Shown: piece by piece, positions 28,401-64,000 of the stretch
Numbering within the stretch: position 1 is the stretch's first letter
Layout of the letters: each line of letters opens with the position of its first letter
Assembly: GCA_963693285.1 (NCBI GenBank)
Contig: OY848926.1
Location: forward strand, 5,626,501-5,690,500
DNA: 64,000 nt
Origin: Xestospongia muta
Taxonomy: Eukaryota > Porifera > Demospongiae > Haplosclerida > Petrosiidae
Reading direction: 5' to 3'
The notes under the pieces: generated by a model
Database searches by the model: none
What the model was told of the DNA's origin: nothing
The model's input: only the letters and a program-made list of their open reading frames with translations
Made by a program: the position numbers and the translations under genes

Positions 28401-29977
28401 TCAGTCTTAATTGTAGCAGCTATAGGATTAGAAGGATATGATGAACCTGGAACAAGTACTTCATCACCATGTATTCCATACGTTGGGTCACTATGACTTA
28501 ATTGTGTTTCTGTGCTTCCTGAAGGAATGACGTTTTCTCGTAACACAACATTGCCCTTCTCAGTAGTATATAAAGTGGCACTAGAACCATCTCCTGACCC
28601 TGTATCTTCTATTTTGATCCTTTTTTCTGACATTTCAATAGTTTCTTTATCAGTCAGTAATTGGCATTTGCCATTAATTGGAGGGCTAGTAAGTGATGGA
28701 GTCAAAGAAGAAAACGAAGAGGAAAGAGAAGGAGGAGGAAAGAGATTTGAAACTGTTTCAGTTGAATCAACTGAAGGTAGCACAGGCATAGATGGAGTCA
28801 ATGCCTCAGGATTAACCAGAGGTAATGGCCGTGCCTCAATAACACTAGGATCAACTGGAGGTTGCATAGGAGGCTGTGTCTCAGTAACACTAGGATCAAC
28901 TGGAGGTAACATAGGAGGATGTGTCTCAGTAACACTAGTATCAACTGGAGGTAATGTTGGAGGCTGTGTCTCAGTAATACTAGGATCAACTGGAGGTAAC
29001 ATAGGAGGCTGTGTCTCAGTAACACTACTGTCAATTGGAAGCATTGTAGGAGGCTGTGTCTCAGTAACACTAGTATCAACTGGAGGCAATGTTGGAGACT
29101 GTGTCTCAGTAACACTAGTATCAACTGGAGGCAATGTTGAAGGCTGTGTCTCAGTAACACTAGTATCAACTGGAGGCAATGTTGGAGACTGTGTCTCAGT
29201 AACACTAGTATCAACTGGAGGCAATGTTGAAGGCTGTGTCTCAGTAACACTAGTATCAACTGGAGGCAATGTTGAAGGCTGTGTCTCAGTAACACTAGTA
29301 TCAACTGGAGGCAATGTTGAAGGCTGTGTCTCAGTAACACTAGTATCAACTGGAGGCAATGTTGGAGACTGTGTCTCAGTAACACTAGTATCAACTGGAG
29401 GCAATGTTGAAGGCTGTGTCTCAGTAACACTAGTATCAACTGGAGGCAATGTAGGAGGCTGTGTCTCAGTAACATTAGTATCAACTGGAGGTGGAATACC
29501 AATAATAGTAGGTGGAATTTGTCCCTTAGTAAAAGTAGGATCAGCTGAAGGTAATGTTGGAAGTTGTGCATCAGTAATACTAGGATCAACTGGAGGCAAA
29601 ATATTAATGATAGTAGGTGGAATTTGACCCTCAATAAGTTCTGGATGCTGATAAGGCTGATTAAGAGGTACTGTTGGGGGTGGTGCATATACTGGAAAAT
29701 ACCTAGTACCTTGAGGAGGAGAATATTGTGGAGCACCATAAAGTGAACTATAGGGACTGTCTATAGACATTGATACTTCTGGTGGTTGATTACCCCACCC
29801 CTGAACAATAGGCTGTTGCAGTGGCATATTACTCATCATAACAATTTGAGTTTTCTCCATCTTCTCTGAATGTGGTAGTTGCTGTGCTTGGTACTGACAC
29901 ATTTCTTGTTGGTATAGTTGGTGTTCTTGATACATTTGTTGCTGTTGGTGTAGTGGTTGTAGTTCTTGTTGTTTGAG

Positions 29978-31671: not shown

Positions 31672-43088
<11,417 letters not shown>

Positions 43089-43428: not shown

Positions 43429-43746
43429 ATGGAGGCTGATGTAAGAAACTACAGAGAAGCCGTTATTGATGTTTTTAGGTCCCAGTACGTAGAGCTTAGC
43501 TCATCGCTAGAGGGATGTATGGACTCTTTTACTGATAAAGCTTATGAATCTGGATTGATATCTGATCAAGTCATGAAAGAACGGAAAAACTTTTCAAGTA
43601 TATTTAATGAGTTTAAAGCTGGATTTAATTCCAAAACTAATGTTTCGGAAGTACAGAAATACTATCAATGTTTTATTGAAATTCTTGATGATCTTGGTGG
43701 ACCAGTACCAGCTGTTGGTAAAAATCTTGCTTCAGAATTATCAGGT
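43429..43746 (+). other. CARD/death-fold-like domain 1 of gene D
   Basis: About 106 residues, all helical in pattern: LEGCMDSFTDKAYESGLIS, then SSIFNEFKAGF, VSEVQKYYQCFIEILDDL. It shares with domain 2 the frame of a helix ending in (Y/F)xxxLIS, a following polar helix and a hydrophobic C-terminal helix. That frame is common in CARD and death-effector domains of invertebrates. The assignment is from pattern only. Confidence 0.45.
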
Positions 43747-46700
43747 ATTAAAATATTTTTAAGATAAATGTATTTTGATGCAATATATATCGTGTACAAG
43801 TAAGACTACCCTTTAAATTGTCTTTGTCTTTGTTGCAGATCTTTCAAGTCAGAAGTCAAATTGGACTAAAACAAGTCAGTTAGCTCCATAATAAATCATA
43901 ACTGCTCATAACACAAACTTTTAATTTAATAGAAAAGAGATGTGACAAGAAAGCTTCTGGTACTGGTTTAGTGACTGATGTAACCAAAGATGAGGGAGGT
44001 TGGTCATATGGTATTTAAATTCCAATAATTTTCATTATAATATGTATGTTAACGCTAAACACCAGAGCCACACAGTTAGATGGCTGTGATCACACTAGCT
44101 GCTAAGAACTTAGTAAAGAAAGAAAGAATGTCTTGATAGCTATTGAATACCAGATAGATATCCTTTTAAGTTATAGATCTGGCATCATGTAAGCATGATC
44201 TACCATATAGATAGTGAGTAAATTTTGAAGGAAAAAAATCGACAAATTTAATAAATTACATTTCATTTGCCCAATCTCCAATATTTTACTTGGGGTGTGG
44301 TAGCTCTGTATGCAGTGCAAGTAGCAAGCACATTTTCTTACATGGTATTCATGGTATTCTCAGTTATAATGACACTTTATCAATATTTGAACTAAGAAAG
44401 GACAATCTTTCTGATGTAGATGGTCCTTTGAAGAGACACCTTACATCTGAAGCAATAACAATTATCATCAAGCAATCATTCGTTATAAATTTAAATTTGT
44501 CAAAATCTATTTTATATTGATTTTTGATTAATTTTCTTCCACCAATATTATACCCATTATACTATAATTTTGTTGCTAATCTATAATGATGGAAAATACT
44601 ATGCCGAACCTCAATGCTAAGTTTTGTCTATGTATATGCTAACTGGAAATATTATATACATGTAAAGCTAAAGGCATCGCAATGTTTTTTTTAAAATTTT
44701 CCAGGAATATCCAGTACTTTCTCTTACTATAAACAATATAATAAGTATATATGTTGGAACTATATATTCCCCTTCAGCTTAGTTTTATTATTTTATATAG
44801 TAGTACAAAGAATACTTTATTTTTCCTATTATAATTATAGATATTGATGGTTTTTTCGAAAGACATTGGAAACGTTTACATGACAGCATTTCTGACCCAT
44901 TGGAAATGGCCCAATCGTTTTATGATCAAAACCTTATTTCACAAATGTATTATGACAATGTTAATATGGCCTTTAAAGAAAGAGATGAGAGTGCAGCTGG
45001 TGTCCTCTTAAATGGTCTAAGACAAACAACCTCTCTTATTGGTCACATTTCATTTATGCAAATTTTTATACCAGTCATTGAAGAATATGACTCATTGAAA
45101 GAAATTGGTGCCATCATGAGTAAGGGCTACAAATTAATCAAGAAATTAATAAGAAGCATAATTAAAATCATGATTTACTCAATTTGAAATGTACTATCAA
45201 CTGTTCATCTACAGAGAAAGAAATGACTAGTTTACCAGGACAAGATTTGGATATTCCATTAGAGGAAGGGCCATCAAGTACCAGTAATTCCACAAAAGGT
45301 ATGAGCAAGTTTATGCATTTTCTACTTTATAGTTATTTTCATACAGGAATACAATTTGATGTGCATACATCAATTTATGAAAGTTCTTTTTTGGTTGCCA
45401 TCACTTTAACTTCAACTACAACTGGCAAAGAAATTATTCTTAAAGGAATTAATTATGAAAGTGTTGTCGAATTACACAACGGAGATGAGAATTTAATTTT
45501 TCCTATTAGTGCTTTACGAGCATGTCTTTTTGATGTAGCTAAAGAAAATGGTGTCTGTGATGTCACTGTGTTACTATGTGGATCTGACAGGACACCGATG
45601 TTTCAACTTCATTTTTTAAGATCAGATCATGTTGGGGTGTTAGTAAAATCTTTGTCAAGTAACTCTGTTCAATGTCTTTTGTCTCAGAAAGTTTTCACTC
45701 AAACTGGTTGGTCATTAAGAGTGTCTATCCATTTATATCTAGTCACTCCAAACATTGAGAAACTTACACTATTGTTTCGACCAGTTCTTCAATCAAATTG
45801 GCAAGAATGTGTGACTATCTTTGCTAAAGGAAAGATATGGGATCTCCCACAAAGTTTTCAGAAGAAAGAAGTTGAAGCAGAGCATCTAACAGGTGAGTAT
45901 ATACACAGTAATGATTATCATCAATACCCTTTGTTTGTGTTCAGTTCACAACTTGAATGTAATAGCTTATGAGCTGAAAGATGTATCCTCGGAGTGGTTT
46001 TTACTAGGATCTTCTTTACATGTGGAGCAAAATATCTTGAAATTAATTGAGAAGCAACAAGGTCAACATCTCAAGAACATGCTGAAAGCATGGCTCAGGG
46101 GACATCCTGATCAGACTTGGAATGTGATTGTTGCTGCTCTTCATAGAATTGGGCATTATGATCTTGCAAAGAAAATTGCAGATAAATATGGTACAATAAC
46201 ATTGATAATATAATAAGTTTGCCTTTTTTGATAATAGGTTGCCAATATCTTTCACATTCACAAGTAGTACCAGTACTGTCTCATTCCAAAGATTCTCTTT
46301 CTCTAGCTAGTGATAAAACCACTGTATGTAGTTCCACTAATTCATTATCATATATTTGTGTTTGATATTCATATTAATATATTCTAGAAACAAACAAGCG
46401 TAACAAGTTCAAGAGAAGAAATATTGCAGCGTTTGTCTGATCAGGAATGCCAGGTTAGTCATGAAATTGACAAGTTCTCTTGGGAAAGCACAAGTTTACA
46501 ATTTGCTATTGAGTCATTGAAGTCTACCATAGAGAGTGTTGATGTTGAGATCAAAGATTTAGAAACTGAATGTTCTAATATCACTATCAAATTAGCCAAA
46601 AAAGAAAAGAAAATTCAAGCTATTCAGCAATTGAAGGATGACAAAAACTCTAGTGTTCTTCAAGAAATTATTGAAGAGGCTGAAACAAAAATTAAATATT

Positions 46701-49700
46701 TGAATAAAAGAAATCAGGAGCTACAATGCCAGATTAAGCAAAAAGACCATGAAAGACATCAAATGGTAGCAGAACTTGCAAAGAAAGATTCTGAAATTAG
46801 TGAGAACAAAAAGAATATGAAGAAATTAGAACAGAAGAAGTCAAGATTACAAAACAGAATCAAATTTCAACAGCAGGCACATGAATTAAAGTTAAAGAAA
46901 TCAAAGCAAGAATATGTAAGTTTGTTGTTCATAATCTTATTTATTGTACTGTTATGGCACATAAAGGATTTGTTGAAAAACAAACACGATGAATTAGAGA
47001 AGCAAATACAGACCTTGTGGGAAAGTTTTGCAGCATCTAAAAGTATTACAGAAAAAGAAAAACTTCAACAAAAAATTATTACGTTGGAACACGAACAGAT
47101 GGAAGTGTTGCCAGAGCGTAAGATTTAAAATTAATGATAATTTCGTTATACTTTATTACAGCATCATTGTTAGAAAGTTTGCCCATAGATGATCTTGATG
47201 TACATGTCATATCTGATGAGTTTGTAAGTAAAGCTATCAACTTATATAAATCTGAAATAATAATAGGTTAATAATAAGAGCACTGATGTAGTGCTTGTGA
47301 AAACTTTTGTTCATAATTTGGGCACTAAATGGTTAGTTAACATTAATAATTGTTCCTATCTATATTAACTTCAGGTCTCCTCCTGATGTTTATGTAAAAG
47401 ATTGTACTAGTGTGATCTTTCATGTTGCTATTAACCTTGCTCATCTGAATATAGAACCAAGTGATAGTTTTTGGCTTTCTATACTTTCAAAGGAAATAGG
47501 TGATGGGGAAAATGTATTCTTTGGGAAATTTAACAGGTTTGAAATGAATAACTATATAACACTATATAACAATTATCATATGATTTTAGTATTTTTCAGA
47601 GTTTGGAGACTAAACAATTTGTATTGTATTGCAAACTGCCAATTCCAGATGAATTTTTGTGGAAAAAGAAGTACTTTCGATACAAGTATGCCATTTTTCA
47701 TAATTGTTCAAAGAGACCAAAGGTTGAAAGTCTTAAATCAGACAATTTTGAATGGAGAGTTATTGAAATAAAATCAGGTAATCAGACAGTACAAATATTT
47801 TATTATTTTATCTGATTTTTATATGCAAGGTGATCAACAAAAACAGTTTGATTTTTTTATTTACCAGCCTTTAAATGACATTCATTGTATTGAAAGTGGT
47901 TCAATCACAACTTTCATTGAATTTGGAGTCAATGAAAAATGGAATAACATTGGGATTTCTACAGTTGCTCAAGCTATCTCAAAGGGAAAGCAATTTTCTA
48001 CTGTATTCAAATGTCTGAAGCATGCAAAATATTGTTTGCCTGGAGGAAGAACAACAGAAGATCCTTCTAGTAATGATTTAATTGAAAAGGTATCAGTTTT
48101 CCTTTATACTATAATTTTTAATGATTAAATTTCAGGTGTTTATTAAAAAAATGGCATCTTTAGTAGTGCACTGTACTAATGATTTGATGAAGCTCTGTAC
48201 TGGTTTTGTAATTGCATATGCATTATTGAGAAGCAAAATACTTGGCATGGAGTCTTATGTTAAAGAAGTAGCTGATATCCTAAGTGCTTTCTTCATACCA
48301 GTTACAGAGTTTGTGGATTATTTCAATGTTATCAAGAATTGGAAATCTCACTTAAGGTATAGCTGTTATACACATTGGTTTGTATATAATAATTCTTGTC
48401 CTTTTTATTGGAAAGGTTTCTTATTGAAGCTGTACAGCCATTGTACACTGTTTTGATGAATCAACCACATCTAAGTTATGAATGGATGAAAGCTTTACCT
48501 TTCCTACATATTATCACTCTTGACAGTTTTGAGCCCTTTAAACCATATGCTCTTCCTTTAACAGAGGAAAAAATTGGGAGGACTTTGTTTTGTGGACTAG
48601 ACATTAGCAAATATTGTGATTTGGCTTTGAAAGACAGCAGGTTAATATGATTCATTTTGTTTATATTTTTTCAATACTATCATATAGTTTTGCTACAAAG
48701 TCATATCAGTTAGTAAAAGATTACTTTGATGTTGATTGGCTAATGCCAAGAGCTTGGGTTGCTCTTTGTTCGTTACAAGAATTATCATCTTGCCTTCATC
48801 ATTATCCACTAGTATCTCCTTTTGTATGTTCATTACTTAAATCATACAAAGATTCAGCTGAGGTAATGTTACTGGTAATGGTACATTATTTTTAATCACA
48901 TATTTTATGACAGACTAAAGACTTAATAAGAGTCAGTGAATGCATTGTAGTTTCAATCAAAGAAAGGTAACCTATTGTTGCATATAATTAAGAAATGTAA
49001 ACTTTTTTACAGAAACATCAACATTGAAGAAGAGCAAATATGTTACTTTAGTGTGAATACCTTGTTAAAGGAGATATCATCATCAAAGTCAGCACAAACA
49101 CTGGAGTTATTTCTGTCCTTGATCAAACTGTTTCTAACTGTATTGGATAAATTGAGTTGGAAGGAAAAGGATGAATGTATTTGTCAACTCAGTAGCTACA
49201 CTAAATGTTGGATTGAGAGTACATATGGAAATGAACCAAATGAACAAGTAATTGAGGCTGAGCTGAAGGTTTGTTATAATATTCAGAGAACTCTTAGCAT
49301 AACTTTTACTATATAGTGTTGGAGCAATATACTTGAGACAGCATATTCTAACAAGATACTTGTGCATGAATGTTGGTTTAAATTGTTAAGTTCTCAAATG
49401 GTTTGTCGTCTAGACAAGGTATTGTTGATATTATCAATTTACAATTATTTCTAATAATTGCAACAATACAGTTATTGTGTCTTTTAAAAGTAAATTTGTT
49501 TGTAAAAAGGACAGATGTAATGACTTATGCAATTAAAAACTGTCGTGTGACAGTTGAAGTAAGCTATATCGTATATGATGACTTGTTTAATGTTCATTTT
49601 TTCCAAACAGAAGAGCCAACCTGTTATCTCATCTAATGATGAGCTTGACTCTATACCACCTAGTAAACAAATGTTTGAGTTGGGAATTCTTTTAAATTCT

Positions 49701-51380
49701 AAGTATCCTACTGGTGTAGATGTAAATCTTCAGTCTGTTTTTGACACAAATTGGTTGAAATACTTGAAAATTTATGGTAAGTACAATTATTTCAGTGTTA
49801 GATTATTATGTTTCAATGTACTTTCAGATTGTTTTGTGTCAAGCACATTATCAGAAGTTCAGACAATTGAAGAGAGTCTAGCAGATTTTCTTTGCAAAAA
49901 AGCAATAAAGGAGTTAATGAAGTTGTTTCATGATATAGAAAATAGAAGTGTGACGTTGAAGTTAATGAATGAGATAAAGAAGGCTTGGGATACTGAAATG
50001 CTTCGCTGTTTATTGAGTCTTAAATTATTTGAAGGGATACACTTTGACAAAATACTGTTGGAAATAAATGCATGTCATGCATATGAAGAGAATAAAAGAA
50101 TGCTATCTGATGTTCTAATTCAATCTGACATAACTGGTTAGTGTTCTTGATCTTCACAAGTTGACATAAGCTATTTTATATTTGTATATATGTACATATA
50201 GGCATGTATGTATGTGTGTGTGTGTGTGTATATTATATAGGTGAGGCTTCTGGAATTGATGAAACTTCATTGAAATCTGAGGATACCTTAGCTTCTTTTC
50301 ACTCGTTATGGAAGTATGAGGGAGAAAGTTTCTACTTTCAATACGGTGATGTTAGTGTGAATCACAATCTCCTAAAAGAAATAGCTGCCCTTGCCAACCA
50401 TAAACAGATATTAAAAATATTGTGTAACATTTATTCAGCAAGATTGACTTTAAATCAACATCAAAACCAATCACAGTTCAGTATACTTCATAACATCCTT
50501 GAAGAATTGTGGAAACCAATATTTGAAGAATGCAGAGACACCTTTCATATGCTGGAGGATAATCTAAACCTTCCTTTGTGCAAAGTACATACCCTCTTTG
50601 ATGGGATTGATAGCAGAGATTTGGAAAATGAAATAACTAAATGGTGTGATGTTTTTGATAAAACGGATCGAAGTTGGATTGGAAATGCTGTAGAGAGAAT
50701 TTGTCAATATAAGAGAGTATCATGTACTGTTCAGACACTAATGCAGATGAAGCAGATTATACAGCTCACTGAAGATTCTAATACTGATACTTTGTTACCA
50801 CCAACAGGCTATGAATATAGCAGTGATATTTATGAGTTAGATGATAAATTTACACTTAAAGCATTTGGAGAAGTAGCAAAACAGATGACTAATATTCATG
50901 CTGATATTATTGAGTGTCCTGAACGTGAAGCCTCTCTAAAACTGTTTTGTTCATCAGTTCAGGTGGTTAAATGTCTTAAGAAGTATACAAAAGGTAAGCA
51001 TTTTATTATTATAATATTAGTAGATTTATATTAATCTATATAGATTTTAGACACCTATGGTGTATATTGCAAATTGCTACTAAACTTTTGAGAGAGGGTC
51101 GACTCTTTGGGAATCTTCTCATATTTGTTCTTGCTTATGGTCCTCTGATATATGATGTTAATGACAATTTTGAAAATTTAATCACAAGCTGTAAACATCT
51201 TTGGAAATATATTGATAAAAATCATGTCCTAGCAACAGCTGCAGTAGTAAGCTCAACTTTCATCCATTTTCATCAATTTTTTATACTTGCAGGAGTATTG
51301 TAATTCCAATATGACTGTAATTGAAAGAGTATTAGATGACATCAAAAGCAACTCATATGCTATAGATGGTAAGATTCACA
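43429..51380 (+). CDS. Death-fold-containing RNF213-like protein, first part (gene D)
   Basis: The start is the ATG at 43429. Exons link in frame through two CARD/death-fold-like domains, a beta-rich domain of unknown type, a Death domain (45945-46190), a coiled coil (46388-47120), then a region colinear with the RNF213 N-arm. That region has the beta-rich domain with FRYKYAIFHN (47.4-47.8 kb), helices (48-49.3 kb), FDTNWLKYLKIYG (49.7 kb), SWIGNAVERICQYKR (50.7 kb) and LAYGPLIYDV (51.13 kb). No N-terminal zinc ribbon precedes the N-arm; the death-fold module takes its place. The last exon (EYCNSNMTVIERVLDD..., 51293-51369) ends in a GTAAGA donor. The next acceptor at 51480 keeps the frame into the following RNF213-like unit, so a single fused gene is possible. 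The N-arm is much more diverged than in copies A and B. Confidence 0.7.
44012..44840 (+). other. Long intron of gene D (no coding exon seen)
   Basis: About 830 bp between a short linker exon and the second death-fold exon. It is AT-rich. A short open frame at 44290-44520 would need a TTG start and was not accepted. Confidence 0.5.
44841..45117 (+). other. CARD/death-fold-like domain 2 of gene D
   Basis: The exon encodes WKRLHDSISDPLEMAQSFYD, QNLISQMYYDNVNMAF and AAGVLLNGLRQTTSLI, ending IPVIEEYDSLKEIGAIM. The succession of amphipathic helices with xxxLAxxLY/xxLIS wording is typical of CARD domains. It looks related to domain 1. Confidence 0.5.
45347..45892 (+). other. Beta-rich domain of unknown type between the death folds
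   Basis: About 180 residues with alternating hydrophobic strands: SFLVAITLTSTTTGKEIILKG, VTVLLCGSDRTPMFQLHFL and SLRVSIHLYLVTP. It sits just before a Death domain, where ZU5/UPA modules occur in some signalling proteins. I do not recognise its family. Confidence 0.4.
45945..46190 (+). other. Death domain of gene D
   Basis: The exon encodes a six-helix Death domain pattern: ELKDVSSEWFLLGSSLHV, ILKLIEKQQGQ, HLKNMLKAWLRGHPDQTW, NVIVAALHRIGHYDLAKKIA. The W...LG, ML..WL, TW..I..AL and G..DLA.KI positions are those conserved in Death domains of receptors and adaptors. These domains assemble signalling complexes by homotypic contacts. Confidence 0.78.
46388..47120 (+). other. Coiled coil of gene D with an in-frame 51-bp intron
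   Basis: About 220 residues of heptad-type charged sequence, for example IESLKSTIESVDVEIKDLE and KKMKKLEQKKS-like segments. It is split by a candidate intron at 46916-46966 (GTAAGT...AAAG). That intron is 51 nt and phase 0, so the frame stays open if it is retained. Coiled coils next to death folds usually drive oligomerisation. Confidence 0.75.
50195..50240 (+). repeat. (TG)n/(TATG)n run in an intron of gene D
   Basis: A short run of TATG and TG units just before the acceptor of the exon that starts near 50241 (GTGAGGCTTCTGG). Simple sequence only. Confidence 0.8.
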
Positions 51381-51480
51381 CCACTAAATTATGTATTTAA
51401 TTGTCCAAATCCAATTTTAACCTATGCTATAGCTTGCTAAAAGTTGCAATCTATATAATTCACCTACTCTATTCTTACAG

Positions 51481-54400
51481 GAAAAATGTGGCTTAATCCA
51501 TGTTACTGTGTCTATTGTGCAAAAAAACTTGTAAACACAAATGAAATCTTCTGTCTTGACTGTCATACTGCTACAATGTTAACATTTTCCTATAGATCAA
51601 TTTCAAGTAAAGGACACAAGATGGTACACTGTTGTAACTGTGGAGAAGAACTTATTAAATATGGAGACAAAATAATATGCATGAATACATGTATGCTTAT
51701 GCATATGACAAACTCTGAGGAATCTGATTGGATCAAATGTGCCATTGATTTCATGATCAAATATCGTGAATTATGTAACTATTGTGAACCTGCTCAAGTA
51801 TTTATTAAAATTCGAGATACTCTTCAGTTAACAGGAGACTTCAGTTTAGTTGAAAATGTTGTCAGACAGGTATTATTATAATTGTTTAACTAGCTTTACT
51901 TGGGCAAAATGTTTTCTGTAGTTATCATTATCTCCTGAAAAGCAAATGTTGACTTCTATTGAAAACTGTTTAGAGGAAACAGGCAAGTTTTTGAAGGCAT
52001 TTGCTAAAGACAAAAGAAAGAAAGATTGTTTGGAAGCTATCGCAGAGTGTCAAAATATTGTTGCATGGATAAAGAAAACAACAACAGGTGAACAACACAA
52101 TCACTTCCCTCAATCTAGTTACCATTGTAACCATGTTTGTTCAGATGTAACCAGTCTTCAGAACTTTGTCACTGTTGCTCTTGCTACTGCTGCTGGTGGA
52201 GAAGGAGATGTAACCACAGACAAATTGTTATATCTTCGTAATGTAGGAAGTGGTTTTGGTCCTCTTATCTACAACCTTCCTAGAACTACAAATTATCATC
52301 AACTTCAAGAACGCTGTAAAACACTTTGGGAGACATTGAAACATGCTCCAACTCTACCAGAAATGATGGTAAAGTTGCAAAGTTTGTTGCTTACTTTAAT
52401 ATTATTTCTTTACTAGAGAACCTGTGAACGTGAAATTGATTGGTATCAATCAGTAAAAGAGATACAAGGATCTGTTGAGATCACTTCATTTGGTCAAATG
52501 TGAAATATTATTACTTATGGCTTGTATGAGATTGGTACCTCAAGGAAAGGAATTCTTACAAGTAGATCATCAGCTATTCACTTGAGACTGATACAGTCTA
52601 AGACAAAGAGAATACACAAACTACAATACTCTTTGGATGAAGTGAGGGATCTAGAGAGTAAATTAGTATTGATTACTGGAAGAGAATCAGGAGAAAGACA
52701 AAAAGTGGATTTATTTCTTGATGTAAGTTGTTGCATTATGTACATGTAATACATGTTTTTTTGATACACACAGATTTTTCACAGTGTTTGTCAAATTGCT
52801 GATGTTCTCATATCATTGCAACAATATGGAAACAACAAGTATATTGGATGGACTATCCATTTTCCATGTAATGTTGATGGTGTTGTGGAAAAATTAAGAT
52901 GTCAAGCCAGTGAAATGGAAAAGGATTTAGAGGATTGGAAGGCTGAGTTATCAGATCATAGAGACCAGTTTTATGAACTCAATTACTTCACTACTCCTCA
53001 ACTACTGTCTCTAAGAGAGGAACTAGGTCAGTTTAAGACCAGTCCTAATTCTACTAAACCAGTTAAGTCAGTGGTGATGTCACTTCTTCAATGTCTCTCA
53101 AGAGAGATCACTTCCAATTTAGTTAAAGATGAAGTACAAGTTGTTTGTGCTATACTTCAAGAACAAAAGCTTGCTGAGTCTGCTTTTGACAGTATATCTC
53201 ATGATTTTATAGCTAAAGATAGAGGAATAGCTCTAGAAGAAGAAAGATATAATCGTCAACAAAGTGGTGGATCTGATGGATCACCTGTGAGGTAAGTAAA
53301 TGACATCAATATGTCTTGTGTATTAATTGTCTATAATGTTAGTGATATGGAGATTGTATGTAGTGACACTTCAGCCAACAACTATCTTTCAATATTGGAA
53401 TTAGGTATGGTTCTTCAACAACTCAGTAACATACACAGAGGTAAGCAAACAAAATAATAAAGATTTTGTTTCATAAAATCCTTTTTATAGATCCGGTTGA
53501 TCAGAACAGACCATTCTCTGATATACTTAAAATTGGTGAACCAAACTTACTTGTGGCCACTCCAGGTATCCTCATATACAATGCTAATATCGTTATAATA
53601 TTTCTCACAAAGATACTGTTCTAAAGACTGTCTTGTCTCTTTATATGGAGGATGAGAAACTACCATTGCCTACTCATGAAGAAGTTCTTTTATGTAGTGA
53701 ACACACTACAGATGAGGAAGTGACTCTACTATGGAAGAGAGCTATGGGAGATCCTAACTACTTCAGAATATTTTGTCTAGTTCATGCTGAGCTATTGTCC
53801 TATCAAGTTTGTGATAAGGCACTGAGAAGTTTATTTGATTGCTCACAAGGACAAAGAAGTAAGTTCACACAATACTAATATTGACACTGTTTATGAGTCT
53901 TACCTCTCAGACTACAAGTTGGTGATCATATGTAGTAATGAAGATGAAGATAAATCTCACATGATATCTAAACTACAGTTTTATAGACGACCTTTTACTA
54001 CTCTTCACTCTGTTCAAACCTTCTCTCAATATCTTATAACTCATTTTATTAGTTGGCCTCAGAGTGGACTTAAAGGACAAAGAATACTAGCTTCTGTTGT
54101 TGATCCAGAAAAGTAAATATTTTTTGATATTTCAAATGTTATTTTCTCTAATTAGCTCTTATGTACGTGTGGTAAAATCAGAGAGAGCAGGCATGGGCAA
54201 GTCATTGTATATTCAACGTTTGGCTGAGGAATTAGAAACAAAAACTGATCAACAAGGACCTTACCATGTTATAATACCAGTTCATGGTCCAAAAGTCACA
54301 TTTGATACCATTGTACAAGCACTCAAACATCCATTTGAGAAGATGACTGACCAAGACAGTAGTGGACAAGCAATCATCTTTCACATAGATATCTCACCTA

Positions 54401-57400
54401 GCGTAAGACTCTCTAAATCTCTTTCACTGATGTTATTTTTGCAATAACTCAATAGGTATTAAGACAAGTTGATTCTGTTTTGTTTTCTCTATTAATACTT
54501 CAAGCAGTCTGTGACAGTCAGGGTAGAATCTGGAGATGTCATCCAGCTCACTTATATGCTATTGAAGTGACAGTACCAAAGGTAACATTGATTTTAATTA
54601 TTGTTATTACAATTACAATATTACAGAGTGAAGTTAAAGTTGCTAAATGTACTATTTCTCTACTTAATATATTACCAACAATGGAGTGTCTCTCACCTAG
54701 AAATGTGTTACAGATGTTACAAAATGAATCAGATGGTTAGTAAAGATCACTTTATATTTAATAGTATATCTTGTTATAGATTCCTTGAAATGTAGTATGG
54801 ATATTGGAGAGTTCAGGAGTCCTGTCTTACAGCGAGTGTACCAATATTTATACAGACATGTAGGGCGTGCACCTTTAGATAGATTCTCTTACAGACTACA
54901 GTCAGTGGAGGGAAAACCTGTTGAATGTCTACAAACACTTTTAGCGTAAGTTATCAAAAATATCCTTCATATTGTAATTTATAAATCGATGTTGTAATAA
55001 CAGTCAATGTGGAGTAAGACATCCTTCCTGGTCAGAACTAAGACACTTTGTTGGATTTTTAGATACTCAGTTGAGGAACTGTGAGAATTCTAGTTTCCGT
55101 AATGAAGATATTGTGATGTCTGGACTGAAGACATTTTTAGTGAAGTTTATGATCAGAATGTCTAAAGTAATTATACTATATTATAAAATACACAATAAAT
55201 TAATACATTTTATATTTTAGGACTTTGCTACATCATCACTAAAAGGTGAAGTGGCTGCTGAGAATGAGGAAGTAATTGATGAAGAACAGCTTCAGGAATA
55301 TCAGATTGACGAGAGAAAAGAGTGGGAACAAAAGTAAATAATTGACAATTACAACAACTTACAAATCTCTTTTTTTCAGTTACTATCCCTATTTTTTCTT
55401 CAATGAAGATGGAATGAGTATTACTTATGTAGGATTTAATGCAACTCACAATGGAGACCTTCAAGATCCTGTTAAAAATGAAGTCATTGAGGCAATAGCT
55501 TTAACACCTCAGTTATATACTGGTCTTCAACATTATCAAATTAATTTGTCAGAGAACTATCAAGTTTGGGGTAAAGATACAATGATACAGAAGATAGGAA
55601 TGGTGATGGGTCTAGAATGGAGTCTTGATCCAGACCCTACATATGTTCTAACTGTAGACAATGTCATCAAAATAATGGCAATCCACATGAGATTTAGGTA
55701 TGTTTGTAATGATTGGACATTGTCATCTATTTTTCTTTAGATGTAATATTCCAGTAGTTATTATGGGTGAGACTGGATGTGGTAAGACTCGTCTCATAAG
55801 ATTTATGTGTGATCTTGCTGCTCAAGGATGTAGACAAGGAGGAGAACATGTGAAAAATATGCTCATTATGAAGGTATCGTCATTACTGTTAATACTTTGT
55901 AATGATAGTAATATTAATGACTTTAGATTCATGGAGGTACTACAGAGAATGATATTGTAAAGAAAGTAGTAGAAGCTGAAGAAATTGCTGATAAGAACAG
56001 GAAAGATCATGAAATAGATACTGTACTGTTTTTTGATGAAGCTAACACAACTGAAGCTATTGGACTGATCAAAGAAGTTATGTGTGATCGTCGTATTCAT
56101 GGTAGATTTATCAAGGCTGATGTCAAGTTTATTGCTGCTTGTAGTCCTTATAGAAGGTAAAGATATAGGTATTATATATAATTTATTGATTGTTATTTCT
56201 TGTAGACACACTGATGATATGATTAAGAAACTTGAGTCTGCAGGATTAGGTTTTTATGTTAAAGCTACTGAAACACAACAAAAATTAGGTATAAATCTAT
56301 ATATTATTATTATTGCAAACTAAAAATGTGTTTTAAACTAGGTAAAATCCCTCTTCGTCAACTAGTGTACAGAGTACTTGACTTACCTCCCAGTATGAGA
56401 CCTCTGGTATATGACTTTGGTCAACTAAGCAATGGAACAGAGAAGGATTATACTAAACAAATTGTCAAGAGTAAATGTCAGGCCATACCTGAAATTAGTG
56501 GACAAGTTGGAATTATTGATACAGTAGCTGATGTCGTAACCTGGTCACAGAAATATATGAAGAAAAGAAATGTAAATTAACTCATAACTGATAGAGTACA
56601 TAGTTCTTTACATCTCTCAGGATGAGTGCAGTTTTGTTAGTTTAAGAGATGTTGAACGAGTAATGATTGTCTTTGGATATTTCTGTGAGAAAAGCGATTT
56701 GTTTACACAAGAAGTTAAGATCAAAGCTCAGGATGAGGTAAGGGTAGAATTACAATGAATAGTGTTGAAGTATATTTCTTAACTTAGGGAGAACAAATAG
56801 TTGATGAGATATCTCGTGCCTTAATATTAGCTGTCAGTGTTTGCTATCATGCTAGACTACAGGACAGAAGGAAATATGAACGTCGTGTAGTACGACAGTT
56901 TAAGGTTCCACTAGGAGTACCTGGAGGAGCAGATCAGTTCTGTAATGAAATAAGATGGTATGTAAAAGAGATGTTTTATAATAAATCATTGTTCTCTCTT
57001 ATATATGAAGGTGTCAAGATGTTCTCTTAGACAACATGAAGTTAGGTCCAAATATTGCTAAGAATGCTGCTCTGAGAGAAAATGTTTTTATGATGGCAAT
57101 ATGCATTGAGTTAAGGATCCCTCTCTTCTTAGTGGGTAAACCAGGAAGTTCAAAGTCTTTAGCCAAATCTATTGTGGCTGACTCTATGTTGGGAAGATCT
57201 TCTGAAAAAACATTAATGAAAGAATTCAATCAGGTAACTTGCCTCTAAGCCAAAATAAATGCTACTTCTTTTTAAAATATAGGTTCAGATATTTTCATAT
57301 CAATGTAGCCAGCTGTCTACTCCTGAAAGTGTCATTGAAGTTTTTAACTCTGCAAAAAGCTTTCAAAAGAAACAAGATACAACTAAATATGTATCAGTTG

Positions 57401-60400
57401 TAGTATTAGATGAAGTTGGATTAGCTGAAGACTCTCCTAACTTACCACTGAACATTTTGCATCCACTTTTAGAGGATGGTACTGAGGGAGCTGATGACAC
57501 TCAACAGGTAATAAGACCTTAGTCAAGATATTATGAGGTATTCAATCTATCTATCAGATCATAGAACGTGAACAACGTGTTGCATTTATTGGTATTTCAA
57601 ACTGGGCACTAGATCCTGCTAAAATGAACAGAGGAGTTATGGTAACTCATGGTGACCCTGATGAAAATGAACTTGAACTTTCCGCAAGGTACAATTAGTT
57701 TCTATAGTTGCTATTTTAAAGTATTTCTTCAGAGGAATATGTTCCAATCGTGATGATGACCCAGTTAAAAGAAGGCTAGATTCATGCTTTAAACCATTGA
57801 CAGCAGCTTATAAAACAATTTGTGATGAGCAGAACAAAATTAATAAAGCATTCTTTGGTCTTAGAGATTTCTACAGGTACCATTATTGATGATAATGTTA
57901 TTGCTAAACATTTCACCTCTATTACCACTCCTATAGTCTGATCAAAATGTTATACTGGATGTGTGAAAAGAGCAAATTACCACCGACAGGACCTCAATTA
58001 CAACATGCTATAAAAAGAAATTTTGGAGGTCTTGAAGATTTTGACACTTTTGATATATTTAAAAGATTCTTGAAGAACATTGAGGATCAACCTGATCTGA
58101 CTGGTTTGAGTAAAAAGGTATAGTTTGAGAATGTCATTTACATGATGTTAACTGTCATGTCACAGGATTGTGAACTTCTCTCTCCTGATTGCTCTCCTCT
58201 TGGACTTATTAGGAAGAATCTACAGACCAAGGAGACTTCTTGGCATGGGTAGATCAGAGACTTGTTATTGTATTTCAACAACAATTCTTTCTTTTTCCTT
58301 ACAGAGAGAATCGTTATCTCTTATTCCTAACAGAGAACTATGCAGCTTTACGAGTACTCAAACACTATCTTCAAGAGGAGATAGGATTGACTGTCAATCA
58401 AGATAAATCTGGTGGTTTGGAGGAGAATACATGTATTATGCAAAGAATGGAGCCGTTTGTTTTATTTGGTAGCTCTTTCCCAAAAGACAGAGAATATACT
58501 CAAGTTTGTCGTAATATCAATCAAATTAAGATTTGTATGGAAACGGGTCGTACTGTCATCCTCCTTAACTTAGAAAACCTGTATGAGAGCTTGTATGACC
58601 TGTTAAACCAGTATTACATACATTTGGGTGATCAACGCTATGTAGATTTGGGTCTACAGACCCACAGAGTTAAATGTCGTGTACACAATAACTTTAAGTA
58701 TGACAATTATTTTATTGTGTAGTTTAATATATTAATTGTCTACAGGCTCATTTTGATAGCAGAGAAAACCACAGTTTATGAGAAGTTTCCAACTCCTCTT
58801 ATCAATCGTCTTGAGAAACACTTTGTACTAACAGAGACAGTACTACTAGACTGGCAGAAAGAAGTACTTACTGAGCTCACTAACTGGGTACATCAATTTA
58901 GTATAGTCACTGAAGGAGATGCAAGGTTTACTGAACAAGATGCTTTTGTTGGCTACCAAAGTGATACCATAGCCTCTGTGATCTTCCAGGCTACTCAACA
59001 ACTACATCAACAAGCAGCATCATGGCACAGCAAAGAAATATGGAGACATGATAAAAAGTCTGAAGAATGGAAGGAAGCTGTCTTAACCCAAAGCAAAAAG
59101 ATCCTTTTACAAATGGCTTCACCAGATGCACTCATTAGGTTACATTGCACATCACTTGCTGATGACTATGAAGAATTACGTCAAATATATTTCTCAGAAC
59201 AACATCATGGCTCTATTGTCCAGTTCCTTGTTCATCATCTTCATAATGGTAGTCATATGTCAGGTCAATGTGGTCTTCTAATACAAGTAAGATATAATAT
59301 TATTATATTGTGTTATTATCTTATTATTAGGTGACTACTCATAGTCAACTTCTATCTAGTCAAGAGCTCAATGAATTATGTCAGTGTATTGATATGAGAG
59401 AAGATCAAGTCTTGTGTTTCTTACTTCAAGAATTTGATACAGAAATGGACTTCAGTAATAAAATTAGGTAAATAATTTATATTACATTAATTGACAGTTA
59501 TGAACTTCACATAGTCCTGCATTCTCTCAACATAACAAGAAGGACACACTCCTGATAATCCAGTGTGATTCTGGTCACTTATTTGGTGATCTTATAGCTT
59601 GTGCTCGCTATCGTATTGATGATGAGAAAGAAAAAGCCAATTATCAGTGGAAGGAGGGACAAGACTTTGTTCATGTTCTCTTCATCATTCATCTTCCTCG
59701 TCAAGCTGGAGAGACAGACAAACACAGTTCTTCCTTTGTAGGATTTCAAGGAGGTTCCTGGATATCAGCTCATATAGATGACATACGAGCTCCTCCTAAG
59801 ACAGCACTCACTCTTAATGATGCTCTGAGTGCTCCTATAAGTGATCTGTTTTATAATAGAGATTTCTTATCTTATATGAGAGAAAGAGAAAGCAGAAAGT
59901 CAGGCAAGGGAAATGTCAATTTGGAGGTTGAAGATCTGGATAATCTAGAAATAACTGAGCAGTCATTAGAGCTCATTAGTGATCAGAATATGGAAACATT
60001 AGCAGAACAACATATGACTGGAGAAGAGATGAAAACTGAAGACTTGGAACAATTAAATTCACAAGTAAATAATTGAAAGCTGATGATATTGGATATAGAC
60101 TAGATACAATACATTAATCTTTGACCATTTCTCTAGTTTCATGAAGATATTTTAATAGAGACTTATACCTCACCGGTTACTAGACCATCTAGAGTACATC
60201 ATAATCAATGCCATCGTCTCTATAACTGTATTCAAGCTGCAGTAGCTAGAATGGTAGAGAATGATGACACTAGAAAAGAGTGGGCTACACATCGGGTTAG
60301 ATTATTACTTGATCTGATCCCTCAGAATCCTACCTATCCTCTTGGTAAACACTAAGTTATGATATCAACTTATCTATTGATATATTTAATAGATGATCAT

Positions 60401-63400
60401 ACCTTTTATGGAGCACTAGTAAAACACATTAGGAATGTGTTAAAAGAGAGAGACACTGTACATCAAAACAAGGAATGGGTACTTAAGGAAGCATTGAGTG
60501 GTCGAAAACTACAAATTGGAGGAACTTTTCAGAATGTGTTAGAGAGAAGACTTGATGAAGTCATTGTACCAATATTTGCAGCCATTCTCTCATTTACAGA
60601 TCACTACTCAAATTTAGACCTCATAAAACCTAGGTATATTAATATGAGCATTCACAGTTTAACTTATTATCATAATTGTAGTCATCCTAGACAAGAAGAG
60701 GTCAATCCATTACAACAGTTGTGGCTTCAAATGTTCTCTGAGGATAAACTATGTCAATTTAGTTATGAGAGTTTCTCAATGGGCAAAGGAATAGAGTATC
60801 ATGACTTCCAGTCAGCTGTCAACAGAGTAGGAACACCTGGAGTAGCAACTAAGGAACAATTCTCTTGTCAATTTCCTTTCTTCTGGTTGGTTAAAGATAT
60901 CATTGACTCAAAATTAGAGAGTCCCAAACATACTGCAGGTATGGTATAGCTATAAAGTTATACATAGTTATAACCTTTTATAGGGACTCACATTTGGGAA
61001 GTGCACAGTCAACTCTGTGAGATCTTGATAGATACACCTGTAGCATGTATCTTAAATGAAGTGTCAGACGAACATTGGATTGAATTTTATCAACTTTATC
61101 TTCACGATTACTTGAGAAGTGTTCATCTAGTAACATATGAGAACCAGGATATGGCTAAAAAGGAATATGAGGTTATTATATGTAGGAGGACATGCTGATA
61201 GTCAATATTTGTTTTGTTGTTTCAATTATTATTTTAGATCATTGGAAAGGCACTTCACGCTATTATTACAGGACCAAACTTCATTGATGGTTCATCTTCT
61301 TTTCTCTCTCAATTGGCTGCAGTTCATGTAGTATATCATCAATATCAACAAGAAATTATGTGGTTTGGTCAACTAACTACTCATATACCTGGTATCTTAA
61401 TACAACTGGATAAAGCAATAGGTAATTATAATCATAATAATCTTATTTTATATATTTCTGTGTTTATATAGAAGAATATAGTTCACAGTATATGGAGTTA
61501 CCGCTGTATGCTGTTAAGGTTGCCATCAATGAGAATAATTTAGCACTACCATTGGATCCTGATGATAGAGCATATGTTCCTCATAGACTTGTTAAACTAC
61601 AGTTATGCCAAAATGCAATTGATTCTATATTAACTCTAGCAGAACCAACTGAGCTCACTAGAAAGATCAGGTACAGACAGCAGTATCATTATGAAATCAG
61701 TTGTCATTATTTAACTGTAGACACTCTTGGCAAAGTGTGAGAACAGTTCAACTCTTTGTTGAACATATTGTGACAAAATTTTCAATTGATGACAAGAAAT
61801 TTGTTGAGCTTGTTCGGTATATAAAAAGAATTGCACTAGTAAGAGAAGTCATAATGAAATCTCTCCTAATACTAATTACTTTTGTTTAATTTAGTTCCTA
61901 AAATCACAACCAGATTTTACAAAAGCCAAAACTGTTCAAAATATACAGAAAGTTCTTCGAGCTTTGGATGGAGATACAGGAAATAAATTAAAATACTCGT
62001 AAGTCAGTACTCCCACAAAATAAGTTTGATATCTTGTTTTGTAAAGATCTGATATGCAGAAAACAATTCGTGAATATTGCAAATCTTTCTTTATGGAAGT
62101 AGTGTCTTCTCTCTGTTTTGGTCAACCTAATCCACCTGAACCAGCTCTCATTAAAAAACTATTAACTATTGTGTTCACTGAACAAGACATGACCAAAGAT
62201 TTCAGTTATTCAGATAAAGAGAAAGTAGACAAAGTACCAGTGATACGTTCTTTCTTATTACAACTACTACTAGAACATAAGTAAGTCATATATATACTGA
62301 TAGCTGTTCATATCTTTCTTTTCAGTACTGAGGTAGTCAGAGAACATTTAGAAGACTATTTTACACGATCACAACAAATCATTAAAGATAATCGTAGCCT
62401 GTGTTTATTATGTATACAATGTTTTGAGGTAGACTACTAAGAGATAGTCAATAACACATACAGTATTATATTTCTTTCTATAGGATGCTCTCCATAAACA
62501 ATACAGTTATATACATGATAAAGTCAGACATGCTCACCAAGTTATGAATGAGGGTATAGAAGTTATTATGAACAGTCCTGCTATTCATCTGCAATATTTG
62601 GAAGGGATTGCCAAATTACGATATGCTATTGTAGTAGTGGCTGAACTCCTTCACTGTCAACATGGAGCTAGTAGTAGACATCAGGGTTATTATACACATG
62701 AAACACAGCTTCTATTAGATGTTACTAAAAGATGTTGTATTAATGATATTGTTAATACTGATAATTCTGGTCCTGCTGTGTTCTTAGTAAAACAACTAGC
62801 TAGACAATATGGTGTCTCCTTCTTAACTAACCTGACTTCAGATCAAACTATGCAATGGATAGTACCTCATCATTTACAAAGATCTAATGAGGTAGTTGTA
62901 ATATTTTTTAAATATAGTGGTCATTATATTATAACTAGGAGCAACAAACTAGTGATCCATTTGTCATCTATCAAGGTTATGGAAATTTAAGAACTACTCT
63001 TACTGATGCAGTATATGGTCAAGAATTCAATAAACTGCGAAAAACTACAGAGGTATTTTTATAGCTACAATCCTGTTGATGTTTAATTATCTCTTTTCAA
63101 CTGATTGTTAGAGACTTAGTACTAAAGATGCTCCTGCTTTGTTGTTAGGGATCTATCAGGTAATCACTGGTAGTTGTGTTTTTACTGATGAATCTAAGAA
63201 AGTGACAGTAAGTTATATGTTATTAGAACTGTGATTTACTTTGTAATAAGGATGAAATGAGGACAGAAATATCCAGTTTAACAAAGAGGTGTAAAATATT
63301 AAACAGATCAGTATGTATATATCATTGAAGTACCAGTCACTGACTATTTCTATTTTATAGTTAAAGTGGACAGCTCAGGCTCTTATAGACAATACTTATT

Positions 63401-64000
63401 GTGGTAGACTAGAACCCATGTTATTGAGACCAGGAATGAGTCCACAGAATAGACTCTTAACTGACTTAATAATACATGTAGTTACTGCACTACAGAGTAA
63501 AGAGAAGTTGGTTATATTACAACCTTTTATTAAGATGATAAATAGTCCAGGAGAATTAAAGGTAGTTCACTATAATACCTCTACAGTATAATATGTTATT
63601 ATAGGGAGCATTTCTACCTACTATGCCAGAAGATAGTCTACCAATTGCAAGAAGTGCTATAGGAGGTGCTTTCTATGGTGAGTTGAATAAACAAAATGTC
63701 TAACATTGTTATGTCACATCTGTATTAGAATGTCCTAGAGGTCATCCATATTTTGTATCTGAGGTATGATAAGATGTTAATTAGTATATATTTGTATCAC
63801 TTGCTACATTAGTTTGGAAGACCAATGCAGCAATACAATTGTCCACAATGTGGGTCTGCAATTGGAGGTCAAAACCATCAACTTACATTTGGCAACAGAA
63901 CAGCTAGAACGTGAGTAGATGTTCCTTCTATTTTCTGCTCATTCAAAATTCAATTCTTCAGCACTGATACTACTGAAACAGGCTATGCACTTGGTCGTCC
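51481..64000 (+). CDS. RNF213-like: RNF213-like AAA+/E3 unit of gene D (open at right edge)
   Basis: Either the continuation of the death-fold gene or a separate gene starting at the ATG at 51486 (MWLNPCYCVYC). It begins with two zinc knuckles, repeats the last part of the N-arm (WIKCAIDFMIKYREL...LQLTGDFSLVE, FVTVALATAAGGEGD), then has AAA+ modules with intact P-loops: ERAGMGKS at about 54176, GETGCGKT at about 55766 and GKPGSSKS at about 57135. Walker B motifs are DEANTTEA and DEVGLAED. The E3 shell (60.4-62.3 kb) and RZ finger (63.73-63.9 kb) follow, and the window ends inside the C-terminal part. From about 53540 it is nearly identical to copy B. Oddities: an in-frame TGA at 52501, no RING, and Phe in place of the RZ cysteine. 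Apart from the TGA all exons join in frame, which argues against a decayed copy. Confidence 0.75.
51490..51700 (+). other. Zinc-knuckle pair inside gene D
   Basis: YCVYCAKKLVNTNEIFCLDC and HCCNCGEELIKYGDKIICMNTC resemble the zinc ribbons that open copies A and B. Here they are fused within one exon to the helical N-arm segment SDWIKCAIDFMIKYREL, so the rest of the usual N-arm is missing from this unit. Confidence 0.65.
52501..52503 (+). other. In-frame TGA stop in the RNF213-like unit of gene D
   Basis: The exon reads ...TSFGQM then TGA, followed in the same frame by NIITYGLYEIGT. In copy B the same place reads SSFGQMKNIKDYGCYTIGT. Two readings are possible: a premature stop, or removal by an unusual 45-bp intron at 52500-52544 (GTGAAA...CTCAAG), which would keep the frame. 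Confidence 0.7.
61700..62284 (+). other. E3 shell of gene D at the missing RING position
   Basis: The exons RTVQLFVEHIVTKF...ELVRYIKRIAL, FLKSQPDFTKAKTVQNIQKV and MQKTIREYCKSFFMEVVSSLCF follow one another with short introns. There is no CxxC...CxH...CxxC cluster between the E3 shell and the KSFFMEVVSS segment, exactly as in copy B. Confidence 0.7.
63729..63911 (+). other. RZ-type zinc finger of gene D with catalytic-site Cys replaced by Phe
   Basis: The exons encode ECPRGHPYFVSE and FGRPMQQYNCPQCGSAIGG. The four presumed zinc ligands are kept, but the codon at 63813-63815 is TTT (Phe) where copy B has TGT (Cys). The acceptor CATTAG is the only one nearby, so splicing does not offer a different reading. 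Confidence 0.75.

Follow-up and report, generated by a model that had tools for sequence, protein, structure and literature searches.

Human RNF213 coats bacteria and the membrane of a parasite, in a process that needs ATP hydrolysis (PMC11549300). For the growth of these coats, a rate-limiting initiation followed by cooperative extension has been proposed, with possible oligomerisation and with upstream receptors; how RNF213 senses such different targets was described in 2024 as a question of 'fundamental importance' (PMC11549300). In the sponge Amphimedon, 357 proteins belong to the NCOA6 TRADD-N clade (eLife 2021, PMC8195603); as presented in the main text of that paper, most types share one to three Death-like domains together with TRADD-N and effectors that vary, while another clade contains TRIM-type E3 ligases. 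Here we describe gene D of the sponge Xestospongia muta, located in a window of 64,000 nucleotides (C10:5626501–5690500), in which a Death-domain head stands before RNF213-type sequence. Our preferred reading, to which we assign a probability of about 0.6 from the comparison of sequences, is that one branch of the RNF213 ligases of this genome has a Death domain before the N-arm and that gene D, in which the adaptor head is larger, is a member of it.

Exons 1–31 of gene D were set by hand, from the ATG at 43429 to 52722, with GT-AG introns. They form one frame with a single stop (the TGA at 52501, residue 2185), so the in-frame exon joins described in the original prediction, made from the sequence alone, are borne out. 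From the ATG to the end of exon 27 at 51368 (close to 51380, the end coordinate given in the prediction), the frame is open and splice-compatible and encodes, in this order, a helical N-domain, a second helical domain, a beta-rich domain, a Death domain, a coiled coil, an RNF213-type N-arm and an RNF213 linker (Table 1). We know of no Death-domain head before the N-arm of mammalian RNF213. Past the hand-set exons we used a home-made gene finder that was trained in part on the gene D exons; in its model, the frame continues through the RNF213 core to beyond the end of the window. Because this finder cannot return stops, an open frame alone is no proof, and the evidence is colinear homology, for which the genome (158.03 Mb in 28 contigs) was searched. 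Two further RNF213 copies in the window, A and B, are members of an array of eight minus-strand copies that are spaced ~23 kb apart at C10:5482–5642 kb.

The linker, AAA+ core and RZ finger of gene D match those of mammalian RNF213 (PDB 6tax, 7oim, 8s24), that is, the features of the family (a dynein-like AAA+ core, an RZ finger and a linker before the core) are found; gene D differs in the Death-domain head before the N-arm and in having the linker twice. The Amphimedon expansion resembles gene D in its N-terminal Death-like domains and variable C-terminal effectors, including kinases and SH2; it differs in that RNF213 and MACPF are absent from the main text of PMC8195603 and in that the TRADD-N of the Amphimedon proteins has no match in the gene D head pieces scanned (no Pfam match to PF13820 in these pieces or in the beta-rich domain and its four relatives, although single-sequence scans may miss it). 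RNF213 is likewise absent from the main text of a 2026 paper on sponge NLRs (PMC12909245). Thus, Death-like adaptors on variable effectors are already known in sponges (main text of PMC8195603), and the Death head on RNF213 is the arrangement that we did not find described in the open-licence literature; this agrees, as far as titles and the starts of abstracts allow, with the earlier statement that no protein with this order has been described.

The Death domain called in exon 7 is upheld by Pfam (PF00531, cut-off 22.6 bits; Table 1); alone against PDB sequences it gives chance matches only, and many Death-domain matches are found across the genome. Farther along the frame, residues 822–1365 and exons 23–26 match, in colinear order, four RNF213 loci, three of them on C5 and the fourth on C1; their cores, at C5:7821.9, 7852.5 and 7881.0 kb and at C1:12996.6 kb, follow ~9–11 kb beyond the matches. 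Our first reading of the stretch at 47.4–50.1 kb, that it is not RNF213, was reversed by these colinear matches. The stretch has no match in the PDB, and its comparison with the N-arms of copies A and B gives no profile likeness (the score was exceeded by that of a reversed control); shuffle tests had no clear outcome either (p values of 0.046 to 0.49 in one set, 36/200 and 9/200 in another). Exons 25–27, when compared with the linkers of copies A and B, give z scores of 11.1 and 13.0, respectively (0/500 shuffles each), and a profile built from gene D and one C5 locus reaches a solved RNF213 in the first linker (8s24, E 1.1e-9). The linker matches to copies A and B, the colinearity with the C5 and C1 loci, and the profile match to 8s24 together argue that the N-arm call is right; the prediction was therefore correct in identifying an RNF213 N-arm, but the branch is the one represented by the C5 and C1 loci, and copies A and B belong to another. 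Human RNF213 has a CBM20 domain (residues 378–515; PMC11549300), which could not be shown in gene D: Pfam gives no match, and a CBM20-like pattern in the N-arm, compared with copies A and B, has p values of 0.046 and 0.29 for gene D and of 0.48 and 0.49 for its paralogue D2 (see below).

At each of the three C5 loci a Death-like exon is found directly 5′ of the N-arm (Pfam E 6.9e-4, 2.1e-4 and 2.1e-4); in the models it is a phase 1-1 exon, joined in frame to the N-arm by splicing through a linker that is short and for the most part acidic. At C5:7820–7840 kb, this exon spans 7833890–7833609 and the N-arm exon begins at 7833091. In the first C5 locus, 48 chained exons (3,258 codons) contain the Death exon, the N-arm, the linker, the AAA+ region (AAA_5, E 1.8e-7) and part of the core; this locus matches gene D with E 2.8e-121 in the N-arm and linker and with E 0.0 in the core. 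The C1 locus has a diverged relative of the C5 Death exon (z 8.0 to the third C5 exon; 0/500 shuffles). Because Death-like exons occupy the corresponding place in three C5 loci, the architecture is recurrent and depends less on gene D. Several results weigh against our preferred reading: the C5 Death exons score 20.1, 21.8 and 21.8 bits, all under the Pfam cut-off; the Death-like exon of the C1 locus has no Pfam Death match; the Death domain of gene D compared with the three C5 exons and the C1 exon gives z scores of only 4.1, 3.2, 4.4 and 3.0 (reached by 3, 7, 0 and 6 of 500 shuffles); the C5 copies have no beta-rich domain match in the genome search and no coiled coil in the models; and the TGA of gene D precedes its AAA+ core. 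From these sequence likenesses, the head of gene D may share an old ancestry with the C5 Death exons, or each may have been gained separately. At the C1 locus (C1:13008–13010 kb), three pairs of zinc ribbons and a repeat region rich in proline and lysine lie 5′ of the diverged Death-like exon.

Exons 1 and 4 had both been called CARDs, but the profile and fold matches were all non-significant and neither call is confirmed. In Pfam, no significant match to a CARD or other death fold was obtained for either exon, including with 23 aligned relatives of exon 1, and exon 1 has no CARD or death-fold match among NCBIfam and PDB sequences. The single-sequence AlphaFold2 models contain four helices for exon 1 (predicted local distance difference test score, pLDDT, 64) and six helices for exon 4 (pLDDT 57; best Pfam match HSR, E 0.11); they are too poor to call a CARD by structure, and the Foldseek matches to CARD9 (E 4.2) and NLRP4 (E 6.7), neither of which is in the VIA-align rows, are no evidence. 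The genome contains at least 150 copies of the family to which the exon 1 domain belongs (150 of 326 candidates scored). Three further members were examined in their neighbourhoods: in two, a Death-domain exon follows (E 2e-7 and 2.8e-10), and the third is in an open reading frame that lacks a Death match and has a hydrophobic stretch towards its C-terminus. A CARD identity of exon 1 is no more than compatible with the company of Death domains in two of these three further members. For exon 4, the only clear relative in the genome is in D2 (E 1.1e-16; next best, E 0.1). A kinship between exons 1 and 4 was considered and rejected as weak (hidden Markov model of four sequences, E 5e-4, with reversed controls at 0.05 and 0.09; hhalign probability 5.6%). 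Exon shuffling was likewise rejected as a proven origin of the head: exons 2–7 are all phase 1-1, yet a run of six arises in 1688 of 20000 shuffles.

The beta-rich domain has five matches in the genome (all five candidates at E ≤1; the weakest, 0.012), and each copy is directly followed by a Death-like stretch, two of which, on C4, contain stop codons. One of the five is in D2 (C10:4332.8–4343.3 kb, minus strand), which shares with gene D the exon-4-type domain, the beta-rich domain, the Death domain (E 2.3e-8, 34.5 bits), the coiled coil and the front of the N-arm, with 39–65% identity per stretch; this shared part is located at 4336–4343 kb. The ratio of nonsynonymous to synonymous substitution rates (dN/dS) between gene D and D2 is 0.37 in the head (333 codons), 0.24 in the coiled coil (217 codons) and 0.32 in the N-arm (499 codons); these values speak for selection on all three. 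Unlike gene D, D2 has no RNF213 core: a genome search with the core gave 33 matches, with loci on C10, C5, C1, C2, C15 and C14, and none of them is at D2. Instead, the D2 frame is spliced, in the model, into a MACPF/SNTX-FN3-GTPase protein (C10:4332.8–4336.4 kb) with matches to MACPF_SNTX (5.6e-9), Stonustoxin_helical (3.4e-20), Thioredoxin_11 (4.6e-12), fn3 (8.6e-11) and a septin-like GTPase (2.1e-8). No match to the exon 1 domain was found in the 43 kb read at D2. A remnant of SNTX in exons 22–24 of gene D was rejected: much of the blastp match to D2 (25 bits) is in the shared exon 22, and there is no Pfam match.

Genes on C14 and C4 have the same order of beta-rich domain, Death-like exon and coiled coil as gene D, followed by other effectors. 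At C14:4470.6–4476.0 kb, the beta-rich domain, a Death domain (25.7 bits) and a coiled coil like that of gene D (0/300 heptad-keeping shuffles reach the score) are followed by SH2 (3.3e-13) and a tyrosine kinase (1.5e-64), possibly as one gene. On C4, the cassette is followed by a WW exon (2.1e-7) and a weak SH2 match (0.018); the coiled coil there is not significantly like that of gene D (28/300 shuffles reach the score). The Death-like stretches with in-frame stops (C4:1465217–1465480 and C4:1480685–1480948; one TGA in one, one TGA and one TAG in the other) are either broken copies or contain unseen introns. Because other effectors also have this cassette in front of them, it is not tied to RNF213, and the head of gene D might be an adaptor gene of its own, ending before 47 kb, with the join to the N-arm a modelling error; we consider this very improbable, because D2 keeps the order of head, coiled coil and N-arm at the identities given above and because Death-like exons directly precede the N-arm at three C5 loci. 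The proposed chimera of death-fold adaptor and RNF213 therefore stands in part: the Death head is in frame with the N-arm and linker, and Death-like exons recur at other loci, but the CARDs are unproven, and for gene D a continuation into the core is about as likely as not. The TGA, the second linker and the Death-like exons at other RNF213 loci had formed no part of the prediction.

Gene D can be read as a single giant gene, as a pair of neighbouring genes or as a gene that is broken; the choice between one gene and two depends on the intron at 51369–51480 and on the TGA. The RNF213 linker is present twice, in exons 25–26 and in exons 28–31 (z 9.5 to each other; the second matches a solved RNF213 with E 5.1e-22), and residues 1012–1210 of C5a align at two places in gene D. 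If exon 27 is read on unspliced, a stop is reached at 51398; an ATG at 51486 follows the acceptor, and exon 28 opens, right after this ATG, with a zinc-ribbon pair that is like the pair 5′ of the C1 RNF213 locus (z 18.9; against the N-terminus of copy A, z is 3.3, and against that of copy B, 1.4). The doubled linker, the stop and the zinc ribbons would all be expected if the head, N-arm and first linker formed a gene of their own that ends at ~51.4 kb without a core, that is, a non-catalytic scaffold or decoy of RNF213, and a second RNF213 gene began at 51486. We judge this arrangement unlikely, because the splice sites of the intron are good (donor 7.3, acceptor 6.9; gene D means 5.4 and 7.0), the frame fits, and the possible stop and start are separated by 85 bases only, with no AATAAA or ATTAAA within 51368–51481.

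The second difficulty for a single gene is the TGA, behind which the AAA+ core of gene D matches 6tay (E 2.9e-205) and AAA_5 (E 1.6e-8). From 53.6 kb on, gene D differs little from copy B (dN 0.07, dS 0.21), whereas the stretch before 53.6 kb, with the linker, is far from it (dS 1.5–2.6 to B and 0.65 to A). Both the TGA and this difference would fit a gene that is broken or being lost, whose product ends after 2,184 residues and whose core is a remnant that gene conversion with the array has kept similar. We regard this as improbable: in our own reading, no exonic stop other than the TGA occurs as far as the part compared (the remaining stops in the comparison with copy B are in introns or other frames); dN/dS between the gene D core and copy B is 0.34 (38 exons, 2515 codons), although conversion could produce this value; and a 66-nt in-frame intron (52500–52565), with a weak donor (3.0) and an acceptor of 5.4, could remove the TGA. 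The suggestion that gene D possibly runs on into a full AAA+/RZ unit is thus supported by the core and RZ matches downstream and opposed by the TGA and the possible gene boundary; the odds that gene D gives one full-length protein today are about even.

In the simplest history of gene D, a head-bearing gene of the C5 type would have been placed before another RNF213 copy or become fused with it, and the core of that copy would since have exchanged with the minus-strand array; such a joining would explain both the doubled linker and the array-like core. The array copies are 89–93% identical to gene D in the core piece searched, and gene D is inverted beside the array; a tenth RNF213 copy at C10:4074.6 kb is 86% identical to the same piece.

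Returning to an RNF213 branch with a Death domain before the N-arm, we can propose how the head may act. Death domains and coiled coils form oligomers. By homotypic Death-domain contacts and coiled-coil oligomerisation, the head would concentrate the ligase at an immune complex that acts upstream, where the ATP-driven E3 core would coat or ubiquitylate the target; a death-fold complex joined by the head would thereby bring the ligase to its site and start the coat. In its widest form, which we offer tentatively and at somewhat less than even odds, gene D, the three C5 loci and perhaps the C1 locus would be a branch of RNF213 with a built-in Death domain, in which a death-fold complex directly nucleates the RNF213 coat on an invader, and the head would be a cassette open to exchange, driving a MACPF/GTPase protein and an SH2-tyrosine kinase as well. 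If true, the fusion of RNF213 and Death domain would show that evolution wired RNF213 directly to oligomeric immune adaptors, and a search of other animals for death-fold proteins that recruit RNF213 would then be worthwhile; a single head on a ligase, on a MACPF/GTPase protein and, in part, on a kinase would be a compact set of modules for testing what the head senses.

Table 1. Features of gene D and its upstream neighbour, in window coordinates.
Feature	Position	Strand	Evidence
Upstream neighbour gene, LRRK/Roco type	34236–43088	+	Ankyrin repeats, leucine-rich repeats (LRRs), Roc GTPase (E 8.6e-20), protein kinase (E 1.1e-24)
Exon 1, helical N-domain (first predicted CARD)	43429–43744	+	Genome family; AlphaFold2 model
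Exon 4, second helical domain (second predicted CARD)	44841–45119	+	Genome search; AlphaFold2 model
Exon 6, beta-rich domain, no known family	45347–45892	+	Genome search
Exon 7, Death domain	45945–46190	+	PF00531, E 2.9e-8, 34.2 bits (cut-off 22.6)
Exons 9–10, coiled coil	46388–47117	+	Translation; kept in D2 and C14
Exons 13–24, RNF213-type N-arm of the C5/C1 branch	47375–50136	+	Colinear matches to C5 and C1 loci
Exons 25–26, first RNF213 linker	50241–51246	+	Shuffle z to linkers of copies A and B (exons 25–27); PDB RNF213 by profile
Intron 27/28 or boundary of two genes	51369–51480	+	Splice scores; positions of stop and ATG
Exon 28, zinc-ribbon pair and start of second RNF213 linker	51481–51869	+	z scores; PDB match
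In-frame TGA, residue 2185	52501–52503	+	Sense codon at this place in copy B
Second half of RNF213, AAA+ core and RZ finger	52774–64000, past window	+	Exon borders from gene finder only
RZ zinc finger exons	63729–63910	+	PF20173, E 1.1e-18

An Rfam scan of the window gave no match. Upstream, an Ank-LRR-Roc-kinase gene ends at a distance of 340 bases from the ATG of gene D. Copies A and B, read by eye, start with zinc ribbons, as had been claimed for them. Copy B has a long insert (21402–22597, minus strand) that is absent from gene D, the matches to gene D breaking off between its residues 133 and 367; parts of the insert look UBA-like by eye. The N-terminal exon of copy B (27911–29760, minus strand) contains many near-identical repeats of the PPVDTSVTETQ type. 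At the other end of gene D, the finder ran past the RNF213 homology, at ~66.8–70.0 kb in window coordinates, into a protein that by eye looks like a VWA type and is probably the next gene.

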